Under the pieces are notes generated by a model. It worked only from the letters and a program-made list of their open reading frames with translations, was not told where the DNA came from and ran no database searches. From Streptomyces sp. NBC_01198 (lineage in GTDB: Bacteria > Actinomycetota > Actinomycetes > Streptomycetales > Streptomycetaceae), in assembly GCF_036010485.1 (NCBI RefSeq), contig NZ_CP108568.1, positions 2,812,001 to 2,876,000 on the forward strand: a stretch of DNA of 64,000 bases, written 5' to 3'. Both the position numbers and the translations under genes were made by a program. Below, one piece after another: positions 29,976 through 36,836 of this stretch (positions are counted from its first letter, which is position 1; each line of letters opens with the position of its first letter).

Positions 29976-30716
29976 GTGATCAGCGACGGTATGGCGCAGG
30001 TGCTGCGTTTACTGACCATGGGCGCCGGCGCGGACGCCATCGCCGACGTCGTCTCCGCGATCGGCGCCAAGGCGCTGGGTATGGACGGCCTGGCCGTCTC
30101 CCTGGTCACCGGCGACGACCGCACCGAGCCCATGTGGTGCTCGGACCCCACCACCCGGCACATCGAGGACCTGCAGTTCACCCTCGGGGAGGGACCGGGG
30201 CCGGACGCGGCACGTACCGGGGTGATGGCCTGGGCACCGGACCTGGCCCGGCTGCCCTTCGCGCGCTGGCCCGCCCTGGCCATGGAGGCCCCGGACCTCG
30301 ACGCCCGCGCGCTCTTCTGCTTCCCGATGGGCATCGGCGCCATCAGTGTCGGCGTGCTGACCGCCGTACGCCGGACGCCCGGCCCGATGACCGCCCAGCA
30401 GATCGACGACGCCACGATCCTGGCCGCCGCCCTCACCGCCCGCTGCCTGGGCGGCGGGAGCAGCGGCGGTCCACCGGGAATCCCCCTCCCGGTGGACTCC
30501 TCCCTCGCCCTGCGGCACGCGGTGGTCCACCAGGCGACCGGCATGCTCAGCGTCCAACTCGCGCTGCCGCTGCCGCAGGCCCTGATACGGCTGCGCGCGC
30601 ACGCCTACAGCAGCGGGCGTGCGCTCACCGACGTCGCCCAGGACGTGGTGGACCGGCGCCTGCGCCTGGATCCGGGCACCAACGGCACACCCTCGACCGC
30701 CGTAGACAAGGATTGA
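29976..30716 (+). CDS. GAF-ANTAR RNA-binding regulator (TTA codon)
   Basis: A 246-residue regulator with a GAF sensor (about 20-150; LAVSLVTGDDRTEPMWCSD, FTLGEGPGPDAARTGV) and a C-terminal ANTAR domain (about 175-235; AVVHQATGMLSVQLALPLPQ, LIRLRAHAYSSGRALTDVA). ANTAR domains bind paired hairpins in mRNA and act as antiterminators. Codon 12 is TTA (30009-30011), so translation should depend on the bldA tRNA and be tied to development. The GTG start lacks a strong ribosome site; an ATG at 29991 is an alternative. It follows the STAS gene by 43 bp and precedes a second GAF-ANTAR gene by 5 bp. Confidence 0.85.
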   Translation: MISDGMAQVLRLLTMGAGADAIADVVSAIGAKALGMDGLAVSLVTGDDRTEPMWCSDPTTRHIEDLQFTLGEGPGPDAARTGVMAWAPDLARLPFARWPALAMEAPDLDARALFCFPMGIGAISVGVLTAVRRTPGPMTAQQIDDATILAAALTARCLGGGSSGGPPGIPLPVDSSLALRHAVVHQATGMLSVQLALPLPQALIRLRAHAYSSGRALTDVAQDVVDRRLRLDPGTNGTPSTAVDKD

Positions 30717-30721
30717 TCGAC

Positions 30722-31471
30722 ATGACCCGCGAACAGCGAATGACCGAGGTCTTCGTAGAGGTCGCCGACTCCCTGACCGACGACTTCGACCTCATCGACT
30801 TCCTCCAGCAGCTCTCGGTGCGCTGCGTGGAGCTGCTCGACGTCGCCGCGGTGGGCATCCTGCTGGCCGACGCGCACGGCACCCTGCAGACCATGGCGGC
30901 CTCCGACGAGCACACCCGGGTGCTGGAACTCTTCGCCCTGCAACACGACCAGGGCCCCTGTGTGGACTGCTACCACAGCGGCGAGGCCCGTACGAACATC
31001 GACCTCGCCGACCCCGACGTGACCGCCCGCTGGCCGGAGTTCGCCACCCGCGCCACCGAGACCGGCTTCGTGGCCAGCAACGCGCTGCCGATGCGGCTGC
31101 GCGGGCGGGTCATCGGAGCGCTCGGCCTGTTCCAGACCGACCCCGACCCGCTCAGCGGCGAGGACGTCACCCTCGCCCAGGCCCTCGCGGACGTCGCCAC
31201 CATCGCGATCCTCCAGCAACGCACCCTGGACCACGGCCAGACCGAGCGCGCCCAGCTCCAGTACGCGCTGACCAGCCGCATCGTCGTGGAGCAGGCCAAG
31301 GGCATCCTCGCCGAACGCTGGCAGGTCTCCCTGGACACGGCCTTCGACGCCTTCCGCGGCTACGCCCGCGCCCACAACCTGCAACTCGCCCAGTTCTCCA
31401 GGAAGATCGCCGCCGGCACCTTCGACACCTCCGCCATCCCCCGCCCGAACCGCCCCGCGCCCCGCGACTGA
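30722..31471 (+). CDS. GAF-ANTAR RNA-binding regulator
   Basis: A 249-residue regulator. The GAF domain covers about 10-165 (VAAVGILLADAHGTLQTMAA, DQGPCVDCYHSGE, ALPMRLRGRVIGALGLFQTD). The ANTAR domain covers about 175-235 (LTSRIVVEQAKGILAERWQV, FDAFRGYARAHNLQL). The motif VVEQAKGILAE is the canonical ANTAR core. The ATG at 30722 has AAGGA upstream and the gene is only 5 bp after the previous one, so the two are co-transcribed. Two different GAF sensors feeding two RNA-binding outputs suggest control of the same or overlapping transcripts. No paired-hairpin target was recognised in this window. Confidence 0.92.
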   Translation: MTREQRMTEVFVEVADSLTDDFDLIDFLQQLSVRCVELLDVAAVGILLADAHGTLQTMAASDEHTRVLELFALQHDQGPCVDCYHSGEARTNIDLADPDVTARWPEFATRATETGFVASNALPMRLRGRVIGALGLFQTDPDPLSGEDVTLAQALADVATIAILQQRTLDHGQTERAQLQYALTSRIVVEQAKGILAERWQVSLDTAFDAFRGYARAHNLQLAQFSRKIAAGTFDTSAIPRPNRPAPRD

Positions 31472-31829: not shown

Positions 31830-31878
31830 AGTGGCGGAACCGGGCACCAAGTGCCGCTCCAGCGGCCAGGATCGGTCC

Positions 31879-33555
31879 ATGACGACTGTCTCCACCGGTG
31901 GAATCGCCTGGAACGTGTGCGACCAGCCAGGCTGCATCGGTGTCACGGCGCCGCCCTACGACTCATGCCTGGCCCACCTGCGGTCGGGCCAGCGGGCGCG
32001 GGTGCTGATCGGCACCACGGCCGGCATCCTGGCGGACTTCCGCGGCGTCGCCTTCACCGCGGAGCTGTTCGAGGAACTCTGCGGCAGGACCCGCTTCCTG
32101 CAGAGCGCGCGCTTCGACCACGCGCAGTTCCTCGGCGACGTCACCTTCTCCGGCGTCCCGTGGCCGTCCGCCGTGGGGATGGTGTCGGCGTCGGACATCG
32201 TCTTCCTGGGTGACGCGTCGTTCCGGCGGGCGGTCTTCCGGGGCTCGGCCGACTTCGGCACGGCCCGGTTCCGCGGGCGGGCGGCCTTCGACGGCGCACG
32301 GTTCGAGGGGGAGGCGCTGTTCGACGAGGTGAGCTTCGGCGGACACGCGACCTTCCACCGTGCGGTCTTCGAGCAGTACGCGTCGTTCCGGGGCGTCCGG
32401 GCCGAGCAGGGCATCGCCTTCCACCGGGCGCGGTTCGCCGGCGAGCTCGAAGGCACCCTGGTCAGCGACGGCACGGTCGACCTGAGCGGCACGTCGGTGG
32501 CGCAGGCGCTGCGTCTCCAGGTGGCCGCCACCGCGCTGGACTGCACGGCGGCCACCTTCAACGGCCCGAACACGCTCCAACTGCGCTACGCCGCCGTCGA
32601 TCTGACCGACACGGACCTGCACGGCCAGACCTCGCTGAACTGGCACCTCGGCTGGTTCTCCGAGCCGGACGGATCATGGCTGGACGACTCCTTCCTGCCC
32701 GGCAGTCTGCGCCCGCGGGTGGTCTCGCTGCGCGGTGTAGACGCGGCCCAGCTGATGCTCACCGACATCGGCCTGGAGCAGTGCCGCTTCTTCGGCGCCC
32801 GCAACCTGGACCAGATCCACATGGCCGGCGAGTGCACCTTCCAGTCGCCCGCCACCCGCTGGACCCGCATCGGGCCGCTGCCCTTCCGCTGGTCCCGGCG
32901 CAACGCGATCGCCGACGAGCACCAGTGGCGGCGGCAGGGCGCGTACCCGCGGGGGCTCGCCTGGTCCGGTGACGACTACGACGTACCCGGGGTCCTCGTC
33001 GAACCGGACCATATCGGCGACCTCTACCGGCAGTTACGCAAGGCGCTGGAGGACCGCAAGTACGAGCCCGGCGCCGCGGACTTCTACTACGGCGAGATGG
33101 AGATGCGCCGCCGGGCCCAATTCCGCACCACCCTGGCGGAACGCTGGCTGCTGCACGCCTACTGGCTGCTGTCCGGCTACGGGCTGCGCGCCTCCCGCGC
33201 CCTGGGCTGGCTGGCCCTGACCATGATGGTCTCCGTCCTGCTGCTGCTCGGCCTCGGCCTGCCGGACTCCGACCCGCAGCAGGTCGCGACGGGAACCGTG
33301 CCGGCCGCCGGCCGCCCGCTCTCCCTCACGATCGCCACCCAGGACCCCCGGCTGACCCTCCCCGCCGACCGCCGCTTCACCGGCCCCCGCGCCGACCGCG
33401 CCCTGCGGATCGTCCTCAACTCCGCGGTCTTCCGCTCCGGCGACGCCGACCTCACCACCTGGGGCACCTACACCGAGATGGCCGGCCGCTTCTCCGAGCC
33501 GGTCCTCCTCGGCCTGGCCGCCCTTGCCGTCCGCGGCCGCATCAAACGCGGCTGA
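31879..33555 (+). CDS. Membrane-anchored pentapeptide-repeat protein (TTA codon)
   Basis: A 558-residue protein. A short Cys/His cluster near the N-terminus (NVCDQPGCIG, then DSCLAHL) could bind zinc. Residues about 60-250 contain degenerate pentapeptide repeats of the A(D/N)LXX type with Phe at the centre (DASFRRAVFRGSADFGTARF). These should form a right-handed four-sided helix. A second repeat-like stretch follows at 250-320. A charged helical region (DLYRQLRKALEDRKYEPGA) leads to one clear membrane helix near 450 (LALTMMVSVLLLLGLGL). A final hydrophobic stretch ends in RIKRG. The ATG at 31879 has AGGA 7 nt upstream. Leu codon TTA is at 33034-33036. Function is unknown. Confidence 0.8.
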   Translation: MTTVSTGGIAWNVCDQPGCIGVTAPPYDSCLAHLRSGQRARVLIGTTAGILADFRGVAFTAELFEELCGRTRFLQSARFDHAQFLGDVTFSGVPWPSAVGMVSASDIVFLGDASFRRAVFRGSADFGTARFRGRAAFDGARFEGEALFDEVSFGGHATFHRAVFEQYASFRGVRAEQGIAFHRARFAGELEGTLVSDGTVDLSGTSVAQALRLQVAATALDCTAATFNGPNTLQLRYAAVDLTDTDLHGQTSLNWHLGWFSEPDGSWLDDSFLPGSLRPRVVSLRGVDAAQLMLTDIGLEQCRFFGARNLDQIHMAGECTFQSPATRWTRIGPLPFRWSRRNAIADEHQWRRQGAYPRGLAWSGDDYDVPGVLVEPDHIGDLYRQLRKALEDRKYEPGAADFYYGEMEMRRRAQFRTTLAERWLLHAYWLLSGYGLRASRALGWLALTMMVSVLLLLGLGLPDSDPQQVATGTVPAAGRPLSLTIATQDPRLTLPADRRFTGPRADRALRIVLNSAVFRSGDADLTTWGTYTEMAGRFSEPVLLGLAALAVRGRIKRG

Positions 33556-33670: not shown

Positions 33671-34051
33671 TCAGCCGGCCTCGCCCTTCCTCGATGACAA
33701 GGGCGCCCAGGTGTACTGGACGCGCACCCCCTGGTCGCGGAGCCAGGCGGCCTCGCGGTGCCGGAGTTGGCGCGCACACTCCGGAGCGATGGCGCTGGGC
33801 CAGCGCACGAGTACCGCGGTGACGCGGCCCGCCTCCGCCAGCTGTCTCACCCGCCGCCAACCGCTGCGCCGGGCCGGGTCGGACTCGCCGTAGGTATCGG
33901 TGACGACCTCGGTGATCGTCAGTCCGCGCTCCTCGGCGAAGGCCTGGCCCTCTGTCTGCGCACGCTGCGTGGCGTCCCTGGACGCGCACTTCGCTCGGTC
34001 GGCGCACACGTAGAGCACGACGGAAGAAGCGGCTTCGTCACGGGGAGTCAT
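33671..34051 (-). CDS. Resolvase-fold protein lacking recombinase catalytic residues
   Basis: A 126-residue protein whose whole length resembles the N-terminal domain of serine recombinases. It has a first strand VVLYVCAD, a helix RDATQRAQTEGQAFAEERG, a strand EVVTDTYGESDPARRSGWRR and LAEAGRVTAVLVRWPS, then RHREAAWLRDQGVRVQYTW. In active enzymes the first strand reads YxRVS and supplies catalytic Arg and Ser. Here it is YVCAD, and the later RLSR motif reads WPSAIA. No DNA-binding domain follows. It is therefore not an active recombinase. Its ATG overlaps the stop of the upstream RsbW-like ATPase gene (ATGA), which strongly suggests the two proteins work together. Confidence 0.7.
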   Translation of the reverse strand: MTPRDEAASSVVLYVCADRAKCASRDATQRAQTEGQAFAEERGLTITEVVTDTYGESDPARRSGWRRVRQLAEAGRVTAVLVRWPSAIAPECARQLRHREAAWLRDQGVRVQYTWAPLSSRKGEAG

Positions 34052-34506
34052 GGGTGGGCCGCCAACTCTGCCCAGACGAGGTTGCCTTCGGTCCGCGTCG
34101 AGCGTGCGGAGCCCCACCTGTCCGCGAGTCGCTGGACGAGGAACAGCCCTCGACCGCTTTCCTCGCCGGGGCCGGCATGACGTTCGGGCCGGCGGAGCGG
34201 AGTGCCGCCCTCGTCGTGGACTTCTATCCGCAGGCGCGGCTCGTCGCCGGTCAGCATGAGGCCGCACAGGACATGACCACCGCCGGTGTGGAGTACGGCG
34301 TTCGTGGTCAGCTCGGAGACCAGCAGCACCGCGTCCCAGCATGTCTCGCCGGGGAGTTTCCAGGCACGGAGCCGGTCGCGCACGGTGTCGCGGGCGGGTC
34401 TCACGCTGGTATGCAGTGCGGGCTGGCCGAACCAGAACTCCCGGCGCGGCGGGGTCCCGGCTAAGCCGGGCGTCGAGACCGGGGCTGAGGGCGTGGACAG
34501 AGTCAC
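34048..34506 (-). CDS. RsbW-like ATP-binding protein (anti-sigma kinase type, TTA codon)
   Basis: A 152-residue stand-alone HATPase of the GHKL type. The N box reads LLVSELTTNAVLHTG, the G1 box is VHDEGG, and the G2 region is SGRGLFLVQRLADRWG. Proteins of this type bind or phosphorylate STAS antagonists and sometimes sigma factors. Many stand-alone copies in streptomycetes have no assigned partner. The GTG at 34506 has GGAAGG 8 nt upstream. Codon 15 is TTA (34462-34464 on the complementary strand), predicting bldA dependence. It is coupled by a 4-nt overlap to the resolvase-fold gene and is divergent from the XRE gene. Confidence 0.88.
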   Translation of the reverse strand: MTLSTPSAPVSTPGLAGTPPRREFWFGQPALHTSVRPARDTVRDRLRAWKLPGETCWDAVLLVSELTTNAVLHTGGGHVLCGLMLTGDEPRLRIEVHDEGGTPLRRPERHAGPGEESGRGLFLVQRLADRWGSARSTRTEGNLVWAELAAHP

Positions 34507-34820
34507 GGATGTCGCCTTCCAGCGCCTCCGGGGGCGGGGCGCGGTGCGGGGATACGGGACTGCAACTCGATCGGTGAGAGGCGTACCCGAAGCAATTGCC
34601 CGGCAGCGGGGGCCGACCAGGGCATCGACACCACGCGCGCGCTCCGGACCGGAGCCTGCGTCATTGCTGTGACTTGACCGCTCACACGTCCACTATGCGC
34701 GTGATAGAGCTCACGCCGCAACCGGCTCCCTGATAATTTCAGTAGCTCTCGTATCACTCTGGCGGGAGCATCAAATCGCTGCCAGAATGGCGCTGTTGAC
34801 GGTCCCTCAGGAGGTTGGGC
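34507..34820. promoter_or_regulatory. Divergent promoter region between ATPase and XRE genes
   Basis: This 314-bp gap is more AT-rich than its surroundings. GATAAT at 34732-34737 is a near-consensus -10 box on the plus strand towards the XRE gene; no good -35 is seen. GCGTGA (34699-34704) and TCACGC (34711-34716) form a short inverted repeat around AT-rich sequence just upstream, a possible operator. AGGAGG at 34809-34814 fixes the XRE start. No gene is supported. Confidence 0.45.
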
Positions 34821-35687
34821 GTGAGCGAAGCCCGTTCCAGCACCAGCGCGCCGACAGTCCTGCGCATGATCCTCGGCCGTCGGCTGCAGGAGATGCGGCA
34901 GGGCGCCGGTGCCTCGCTGGAGGACGCGGCGAAGGCTCTGCGCGTGACGACCCTGACGATCCGCCGGCTGGAAAAGGCCGAGGTCGCGCTGAAGCCTCTC
35001 TACGCGGAGAAGCTCCTGGAGACCTACGGCGCCGGCCGGCAGGAGATCGACGAGTTCGTCGACCTGGCCGAGCAGGCCAACAAGCCCGGCTGGTGGCACC
35101 CTTATCGCGATGCGATCCCCAGCTGGTTCACCGCCTACGTCAGCCTGGAGACCGGCGCCAAGACACTGCGCACGTACGAACCCCATTACGTCACCGGCCT
35201 CCTGCAGACCCCCGACTACGCGCGCGCCGTGCTGCGCGGCGGGTTACCGAACGGCAGCGAGGAGGAGCTGGCACGCCGCGTGGAGCTGCGGCTGCGCCGC
35301 CAGAGCCTGCTGGAGCGGGAGAACGCCCCGACGTTGTGGGTGGTCATGGACGAAGCCGTCCTCCACCGGGTGGTGGGCGGCCCTCATGTGATGCGGGAGC
35401 AGCTGGAGCGACTCCTGGAGGTCTCCGAGCTCGCGCACGTCAGCGTTGACATCGTGCCCTTCGCCGCGGGCGCGCACGTCGGAGCGTGTGCCCCGTTCAC
35501 ATATTTCCGGTTCGAGGAACCCGAACTGCCCGACGTGGTCTACAGCGAACTCCTGTCCGCCTCGGTCTACCTGGACCAGCGCGCGGACGTCGTCTCCCAT
35601 CTCGAGGCACATTCCCGCATGGCGCTGCTGACGTCATCGGAGGACAGCAAGGCGCTTTTGAACCGCATGCGCAAGGAGTACTCATGA
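34821..35687 (+). CDS. XRE family regulator with DUF5753 (TTA codon)
   Basis: A 288-residue regulator. The helix-turn-helix is at residues 15-70 (GRRLQEMRQGAGASLEDAAK, then VTTLTIRRLEKAEV). From about 105 to the end is the DUF5753 domain (YVTGLLQTPDYARAVL, RRQSLLERENAPTLWVVMDE). GTG 34821 is chosen because AGGAGG lies 6 nt upstream. A TTA Leu codon at 35244-35246 predicts bldA dependence. The stop overlaps the next ATG by four bases. XRE/DUF5753 with DUF397 is the classical WhiJ/BldB-type pair of streptomycetes, which affects development and may behave like a toxin-antitoxin pair. Confidence 0.92.
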   Translation: MSEARSSTSAPTVLRMILGRRLQEMRQGAGASLEDAAKALRVTTLTIRRLEKAEVALKPLYAEKLLETYGAGRQEIDEFVDLAEQANKPGWWHPYRDAIPSWFTAYVSLETGAKTLRTYEPHYVTGLLQTPDYARAVLRGGLPNGSEEELARRVELRLRRQSLLERENAPTLWVVMDEAVLHRVVGGPHVMREQLERLLEVSELAHVSVDIVPFAAGAHVGACAPFTYFRFEEPELPDVVYSELLSASVYLDQRADVVSHLEAHSRMALLTSSEDSKALLNRMRKEYS

Positions 35688-36017: not shown

Positions 36018-36836
36018 ATGACCACCAGGCAGGCCGGCCGCGATCTCGACACGAGCAAGGCGCACTCGGCCCGGATGTACGACTACTTCCTCGGCGGCAA
36101 GGACCACTTCGAGATCGACAAGGAGGCGGCCCTGGTCGCTGCCCGGGCCCACCCCGGCATCTACCTGACCGCGCGCGAGAACCGGGCGTTCATGCACCGC
36201 GCCACCCGGGTCCTGGCCCAGGAACACGGCATCCGCCAGTGGCTCGACATCGGCACGGGCATACCGACCGAGCCCAACCTGCACCAGGTGGCCCAGTCCG
36301 TGGCGACCGACGCCCGCGTCGTGTACGCGGACAACGACCCGCTCGTCCTGAAGTACGCCGAACGCCTCATGCGCAGCACCACACAGGGACGCACCGCCTA
36401 CGTCGAGGCGGACATCACCGACCCCGACGCGCTGATGCGCTCCGTGGAGGACTCGGGGGTCCTGGACTTCGACCAGCCCATCGCCCTCTCACTCAACGCG
36501 CTCATGCACTTCATCACCGACCCCCACGACCCGTACGCCATCGTCCACCGGCTGCTCGACCCGCTCCCGGCGGGCAGCGCCCTCGCCATGAACCACTGCA
36601 CGCCGGATTTCGACCCCGTCACCTGGAACAAGGTCGCCGAGGTCTACACGAAGTCCGGGTCTCCGGTGCAGTTCCGTTCGCACAGCGACGTCCGCCGCTT
36701 CTTCGACGGGCTCGACCTGATCGACCCCGGCCTCTGCTGCTGCCACCGCTGGCGCTCCGCCGAACCCGCCACGCACGGGGAGGAGATCACGGACGCCCAG
36801 ATCAGCCTGCTGGCGGGCGTGGGCATCAAACACTGA
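36018..36836 (+). CDS. SAM-dependent methyltransferase, Methyltransf_19 family
   Basis: A 272-residue predicted methyltransferase (PF04672/DUF574). The start at 36018 follows AGGGGAGAAC. The family signature SARMYDYFLGGKDHFEIDKE lies near the N-terminus. The SAM-binding motif I is WLDIGTGIPTEPNLH, motif II is VVYADNDPLVL, and the later part includes ALSLNALMHFITD. These proteins are numerous in streptomycetes, often beside XRE/DUF397 genes, but substrates are mostly unknown. It probably belongs to the same transcription unit as the XRE/DUF397 pair, 82 bp upstream. Confidence 0.92.
   Translation: MTTRQAGRDLDTSKAHSARMYDYFLGGKDHFEIDKEAALVAARAHPGIYLTARENRAFMHRATRVLAQEHGIRQWLDIGTGIPTEPNLHQVAQSVATDARVVYADNDPLVLKYAERLMRSTTQGRTAYVEADITDPDALMRSVEDSGVLDFDQPIALSLNALMHFITDPHDPYAIVHRLLDPLPAGSALAMNHCTPDFDPVTWNKVAEVYTKSGSPVQFRSHSDVRRFFDGLDLIDPGLCCCHRWRSAEPATHGEEITDAQISLLAGVGIKH

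Follow-up and report, generated by a model that had tools for sequence, protein, structure and literature searches.

The stretch analyzed here (the window, 64,000 nucleotides of the genome of Streptomyces sp. NBC_01198) raises the question of what a protein resembling the catalytic domain of a serine recombinase does directly behind a gene for an anti-sigma-type ATPase. An earlier note, made from the DNA letters, had described this pair as an RsbW-like ATPase whose stop codon overlaps the start of a small resolvase-fold protein (here RES). Both reading frames and the ATGA overlap are present where it placed them (see the table), and its description of the pair was correct; what it missed is the setting of the pair in a developmental WhiJ/BldB/AbaA cluster like that of SCO1979-SCO1980. 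In the reading that we consider rather probable, the locus is a switch cluster of the SCO1978-SCO1980 type carrying an extra output gene, RES, which would act by binding and not by recombination.

Table. Features of the RES locus (coordinates are those of the window)
Feature	Position	Strand	Remarks
RES, 126 aa, ATG start	33671..34051	-	catalytically dead serine-recombinase-fold protein
ATGA, overlap of ATPase stop and RES start	34048..34051	-	4 bp
AbaA-like (RsbW/SpoIIAB-type) HATPase, 152 aa, GTG start	34048..34506	-	HATPase_c_2
Intergenic region separating the divergent regulator and ATPase genes	34507..34820		central block strongly conserved in 26 relatives
Predicted promoter of ATPase and RES, TTGCGG-18 bp-CATAGT	34692..34721	-	conserved; consensus reading only
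CTGAAATTATCAG, imperfect palindrome	34730..34742	-	nearly invariant in alignment; putative operator
WhiJ-type XRE-DUF5753 regulator, Sco1979 family	34821..35687	+	GTG start at 34821 after AGGAGG ribosome site
DUF397 (BldB-like) protein, 83 aa	35684..35935	+	4-bp overlap with regulator

The regulator matched DUF5753 with 188.7 bits and the NCBIfam model TransRegSco1979 with 408.5 bits (cut-off 350). Its listed TTG start at 34815 falls directly on the AGGAGG sequence, and the GTG is therefore the better start. The gene behind it, which is found in this place in relatives too, encodes a DUF397 protein (59.1 bits, cut-off 24). The divergent ATPase scored 57 bits against HATPase_c_2 (cut-off 27.4), and additional weak matches to RsbA/RsbW place it with the anti-sigma kinases; an N-box with its Glu and Asn kept (SELTTN) and a G2-like GRGL motif are readable, and the protein groups with the ATPases of SCO1979-type clusters. 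Its gene has a rare TTA leucine codon at codon 15, and a TTA at or near the matching position was seen in 19 of 22 window-type ATPases (window counted) within an otherwise variable N-terminus. TTA codons are read by the bldA leucyl-tRNA and are a means of developmental control. A review names SCO1980 among the AbaA-like genes, which often have a TTA codon, and places it beside the WhiJ-like SCO1979 (PMC4255298). SCO1978-SCO1979-SCO1980 and the window thus have in common an XRE-DUF5753 regulator, a DUF397 gene behind it and a divergent, TTA-bearing gene for an AbaA-like ATPase, whereas the window has RES as an extra gene behind the ATPase. Clusters of the SCO1979 type commonly lack RES (26 of 29 loci), which makes a later gain of this gene the simplest account. 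In the window genome, DUF397 proteins are encoded at about 16 loci, about 8 of which have a HATPase within 2.5 kb, and RES is present only at the locus studied here. Other genes in the vicinity encode an S-adenosyl methyltransferase directly 3' of the DUF397 gene (Methyltransf_19, 365.9 bits; 36018-36836, plus strand), a pentapeptide-repeat protein convergent with RES (31831-33555, plus strand) and, at 29976-31471 on the plus strand, two neighboring genes resembling GAF-ANTAR proteins.

The conserved block between the regulator and the ATPase persists even at loci without the ATPase gene. The palindrome CTGAAATTATCAG, which is likely the operator of the regulator, lies directly upstream of the likely promoter for the ATPase and RES. 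A WhiJ-type protein could act on this promoter block either as an activator or as a repressor.

Is RES a recombinase? Its score against Pfam Resolvase (PF00239) was 19.6 bits, under the cut-off of 23.3, and weak matches to this family were found for 13 of 23 aligned members (P0001 counted). An AlphaFold2 model built from an alignment of 40 sequences (mean pLDDT 83.5, pTM 0.77) has a b-a-b-a-b-a-b core, and its top Foldseek matches were catalytic domains of serine recombinases, the best PDB entry being the IS607-type TnpA, 6dgc (E 4.4e-6, TM 0.71). The best recombinase match of the RES sequence profile among PDB chains was also 6dgc, with a weak E-value of 1.4, so that the fold assignment rests on the model. 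In this model the protein, as the earlier note had anticipated, modeled as a resolvase fold, and no match to a STAS domain was found in RES. It stops just past the fourth strand and therefore lacks both helix E and the DNA-binding part, the absence of the latter having been recognized before. Serine recombinases dimerize via the long helix E.

A second, related dead family (RES2; the family of the window is RES1) provides a link to recombinases by sequence. Comparison of the two profiles with hhalign gave 98.6% and an E-value of 1e-15, and the RES2 profile finds large serine recombinases, thereby tying both families to them. The nucleophile and its Arg are gone from RES2 also, and one Arg of the later motif is kept. 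RES2 genes, which occur mostly in another genus, are divergent from XRE-TPR regulators. We also observed a third group of dead-resolvase-like proteins of ~160 aa (VERFRCVIYLC...WRSMIS) at L031-L033, L177, L179, L180 and L192, with an XRE-TPR-like gene upstream on the same strand at several of these loci; L192, from another family, is a looser match.

Residue conservation was analyzed in 56 distinct RES relatives, with recombinase equivalences taken from alignment and not from superposition. Where recombinases have YxRVS, the window protein has YVCAD, and where they have LDRLxR, it has WPSAIAP; both replacements hold in kind across the relatives. The Arg of YxRxS (R8 equivalent) is Cys in all 56. 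The nucleophile position (Ser10 equivalent) is occupied by Asp, Glu, Gln or Val, with Ser in a single relative (L020) and in none together with the Arg, and each of the two Arg of RLxR (Arg68 and Arg71 equivalents) is missing from all 56. The R45 equivalent is retained in the alignment. These tests rule out an active recombinase and agree with the prior claim of a dead one. In place of the lost residues, a new set is invariant (Y14, C16, D52, R62, W65, R83, W84 and W115), and position 114 is Ser or Thr in all 56. The AlphaFold2 secondary structure places C16, D52, R83-W84 and S/T114-W115 at the C-terminal ends of the four strands or immediately beyond them. The recombinase active site sits at this edge of the strands. 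We therefore read the pattern of invariant residues, as placed by alignment and model, as repurposing rather than decay.

Consistent with this reading, the median dN/dS of RES over 300 pairs was 0.27, indicating a true gene under purifying selection. It could be argued that an integrase or resolvase decayed and left RES behind, given the homology of RES to large serine recombinases, the many plasmid-borne genes and the copies that appear truncated or frameshifted (L080, L022, L021). However, the dN/dS value largely refutes this and, together with the residues invariant in 56 of 56 relatives, rules out a degenerate pseudogene; length and context are also consistent across Streptomyces and Actinacidiphila. 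We regard decay as extremely improbable. RES thus shares with the serine recombinase catalytic domain (Pfam Resolvase; IS607 TnpA, 6dgc) the core fold and, via RES2 and the large serine recombinases, homology, and differs from it in lacking the equivalents of the nucleophile, R8, R68 and R71 as well as helix E and the DNA-binding domain. As part of the favored reading, it probably descends from such a domain, with the recombination chemistry gone and the core fold kept. A recombinase domain that is conserved although it no longer catalyzes has been described before: the inactivated serine recombinase F16 (OPG061) of poxviruses (PMC4304020) was among the structural matches of the RES model, although its organism and context are unrelated to those of RES.

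A genus-level scan of 35 genomes turned up RES1 in 3, a family-level scan of 395 genomes gave about 20 clear cases, and 21 Streptomyces plasmids carry it as well. A scan of named genomes yielded 42 loci, all in Streptomyces or Actinacidiphila, and a class-wide profile scan gave nothing clear beyond the family. Neither a phage collection nor viral contigs contained a match to RES, and we reject a phage origin on this ground. With few exceptions, the RES1 loci examined have an XRE-type regulator gene divergent from RES. Window-type RES proteins form one clade (support 100/99) nested among those of other contexts; in these other loci, many of them plasmid-borne, the regulator opposite RES is of the XRE-TPR type and a GNAT gene is often present. 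At nine loci without the ATPase (L012, L013, L021, L034, L036, L038, L067, L069 and L076), a conserved protein of ~77 aa (PDGD.PVAWL.P.GGG.EW) follows RES about 360 bp past the RES start, the two genes overlapping by 4 bp in L036 and L038; two copies scanned against Pfam gave no convincing match. A toxin-antitoxin function has been proposed for XRE-DUF397 pairs, and the numerous plasmid copies beside XRE-TPR and GNAT genes might suggest that the cassette is a plasmid-maintenance or defense unit with RES as effector. We consider this quite unlikely. PADLOC gave no match, which speaks against a defense system, the phage collection lacked RES, and none of 14 DUF397 proteins overexpressed in S. 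coelicolor was toxic (PMC10364602).

The central question is then whether RES and the ATPase act together. The pair is not confined to the window: the ATPase lies between regulator and RES in 22 of 26 window-type loci. In the other four (L045, L056, L057 and L062) it is gone while RES and the promoter block remain, the tree indicating at least three losses, and it is absent at most XRE-TPR loci; an obligate partnership is thus excluded. Likewise, the ATGA overlap, from which stoichiometric production had been deduced, is limited to 3 of the 22 relatives of this type, namely the window itself, L042 and L061; the remaining ones have gaps of 64-205 bp, and the overlap so does not describe the clade in general.

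These observations, which count against the favored reading, would also fit RES and AbaA ATPases being separate cargo that came repeatedly to lie at WhiJ and XRE-TPR promoters, with no joint action. RES often stands alone or with another coupled partner such as the ~77-aa protein, the repeated ATPase losses left it in place, and WhiJ-type loci carry AbaA ATPases anyway, so that the two would be found together at some loci even if they made no contact. Such independence is possible, if doubtful, in view of how the pairing recurs. In L037, L039 and L071, RES1 comes first and shares 4 bp with the ATPase gene, and all nine close RES2 members overlap the following HATPase gene as GTGA. L143 has a single 469-aa ORF composed of a RES2-like domain, the HATPase and a further C-terminal part, and in a near relative the two genes are separate with a possible 4-bp overlap; the fusion comes from this one genome, which counts against the favored reading, and no second was found in 395 genomes. 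The RES-linked ATPases fall in several separate clades, and the association has therefore probably arisen more than once. Given how often AbaA ATPases occur at loci of this kind, the recurrence argues well for joint action but does not prove it. The earlier suggestion of a partner for the kinase remains plausible, the more so with the overlaps and the fusion, whereas its classical dimerization version is weakened by the missing helix E and its DNA-end-sensing version found no support.

A more specific form of joint action would have RES in the STAS slot as antagonist or phosphorylation substrate of the ATPase, i.e., a partner-switching module with a new fold. As in RsbV-RsbW and SpoIIAA-SpoIIAB, a small alpha/beta protein is coupled to a HATPase kinase; in RES2 and in the swapped RES1 loci the RES gene is the first of the two and overlaps the ATPase gene by 4 bp, the L143 fusion joins the two, position 114 always bears a hydroxyl, and the ATPase keeps the N-box Glu and Asn. 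On the other hand, the antagonists in those systems are STAS-domain proteins, and the window pair has neither a STAS protein nor a sigma factor gene next to it. Moreover, S/T114 is not evident in RES2, many RES loci have no ATPase, and the gene order is reversed in the window clade. We find such a module unlikely; lacking a STAS protein, the locus does not belong with the RsbV-RsbW systems, although its mode of action may resemble theirs.

Returning to the WhiJ/BldB/AbaA switch with an added output, we envisage that the DUF397 protein would modulate the WhiJ-type XRE regulator, and that this regulator would control the divergent promoter and thereby expression of the ATPase and then RES. The TTA codon would make the ATPase dependent on the bldA leucyl-tRNA, and in the window this dependence would probably reach RES via the ATGA overlap. 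Because the chemistry is lost while the core fold and new invariant residues are kept, RES most likely works by binding, as a partner tuning its own ATPase or an AbaA paralog in trans. We thus infer XRE control, bldA dependence, physical contact of RES with the ATPase and a developmental role, and the cluster identity, the matching TTA near codon 15, the recurring ATPase pairing, the homologous RES2 and the modeled dead-site fold are consistent with this scheme.

Within the same reading, RES may instead be a parallel effector of the switch, like IosA and AbaA6 in S. venezuelae, where WhiJ9 activates the divergent iosA and overexpression of AbaA6 and IosA mimics a bldB mutant (PMC10294661). In iosA-whiJ9-bldB9, too, the output gene divergent from a WhiJ/BldB pair encodes a small protein that is not an AbaA, and IosA (15 kDa, basic) and RES (14.0 kDa, pI 9.3) are similar in size and charge. 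However, the IosA model was reported to resemble no solved structure (PMC10294661), and RES has its matches among serine recombinases; this reported fold, rather than a comparison with the sequence (vnz16670), sets the two apart and argues against homology.

A literature search located no published description of the RES-ATPase pairing, in agreement with the earlier note. Beyond this locus, it is conceivable, though rather unlikely, that a recombinase catalytic domain was recruited repeatedly, in two related families, as a dedicated partner of anti-sigma-type ATPases in place of STAS antagonists, in XRE-controlled switches that are also plasmid-borne. If binding by RES is true, it would be a clear bacterial case of a recombinase domain turned signaling protein. 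WhiJ/BldB/AbaA clusters are abundant in Streptomyces, and to our knowledge no binding partners of AbaA ATPases are known. RES, whose fold is defined and which is coupled to the ATPase and in one case even fused to it, is a concrete candidate for such a partner, and with it the way in which these switches act becomes directly testable.
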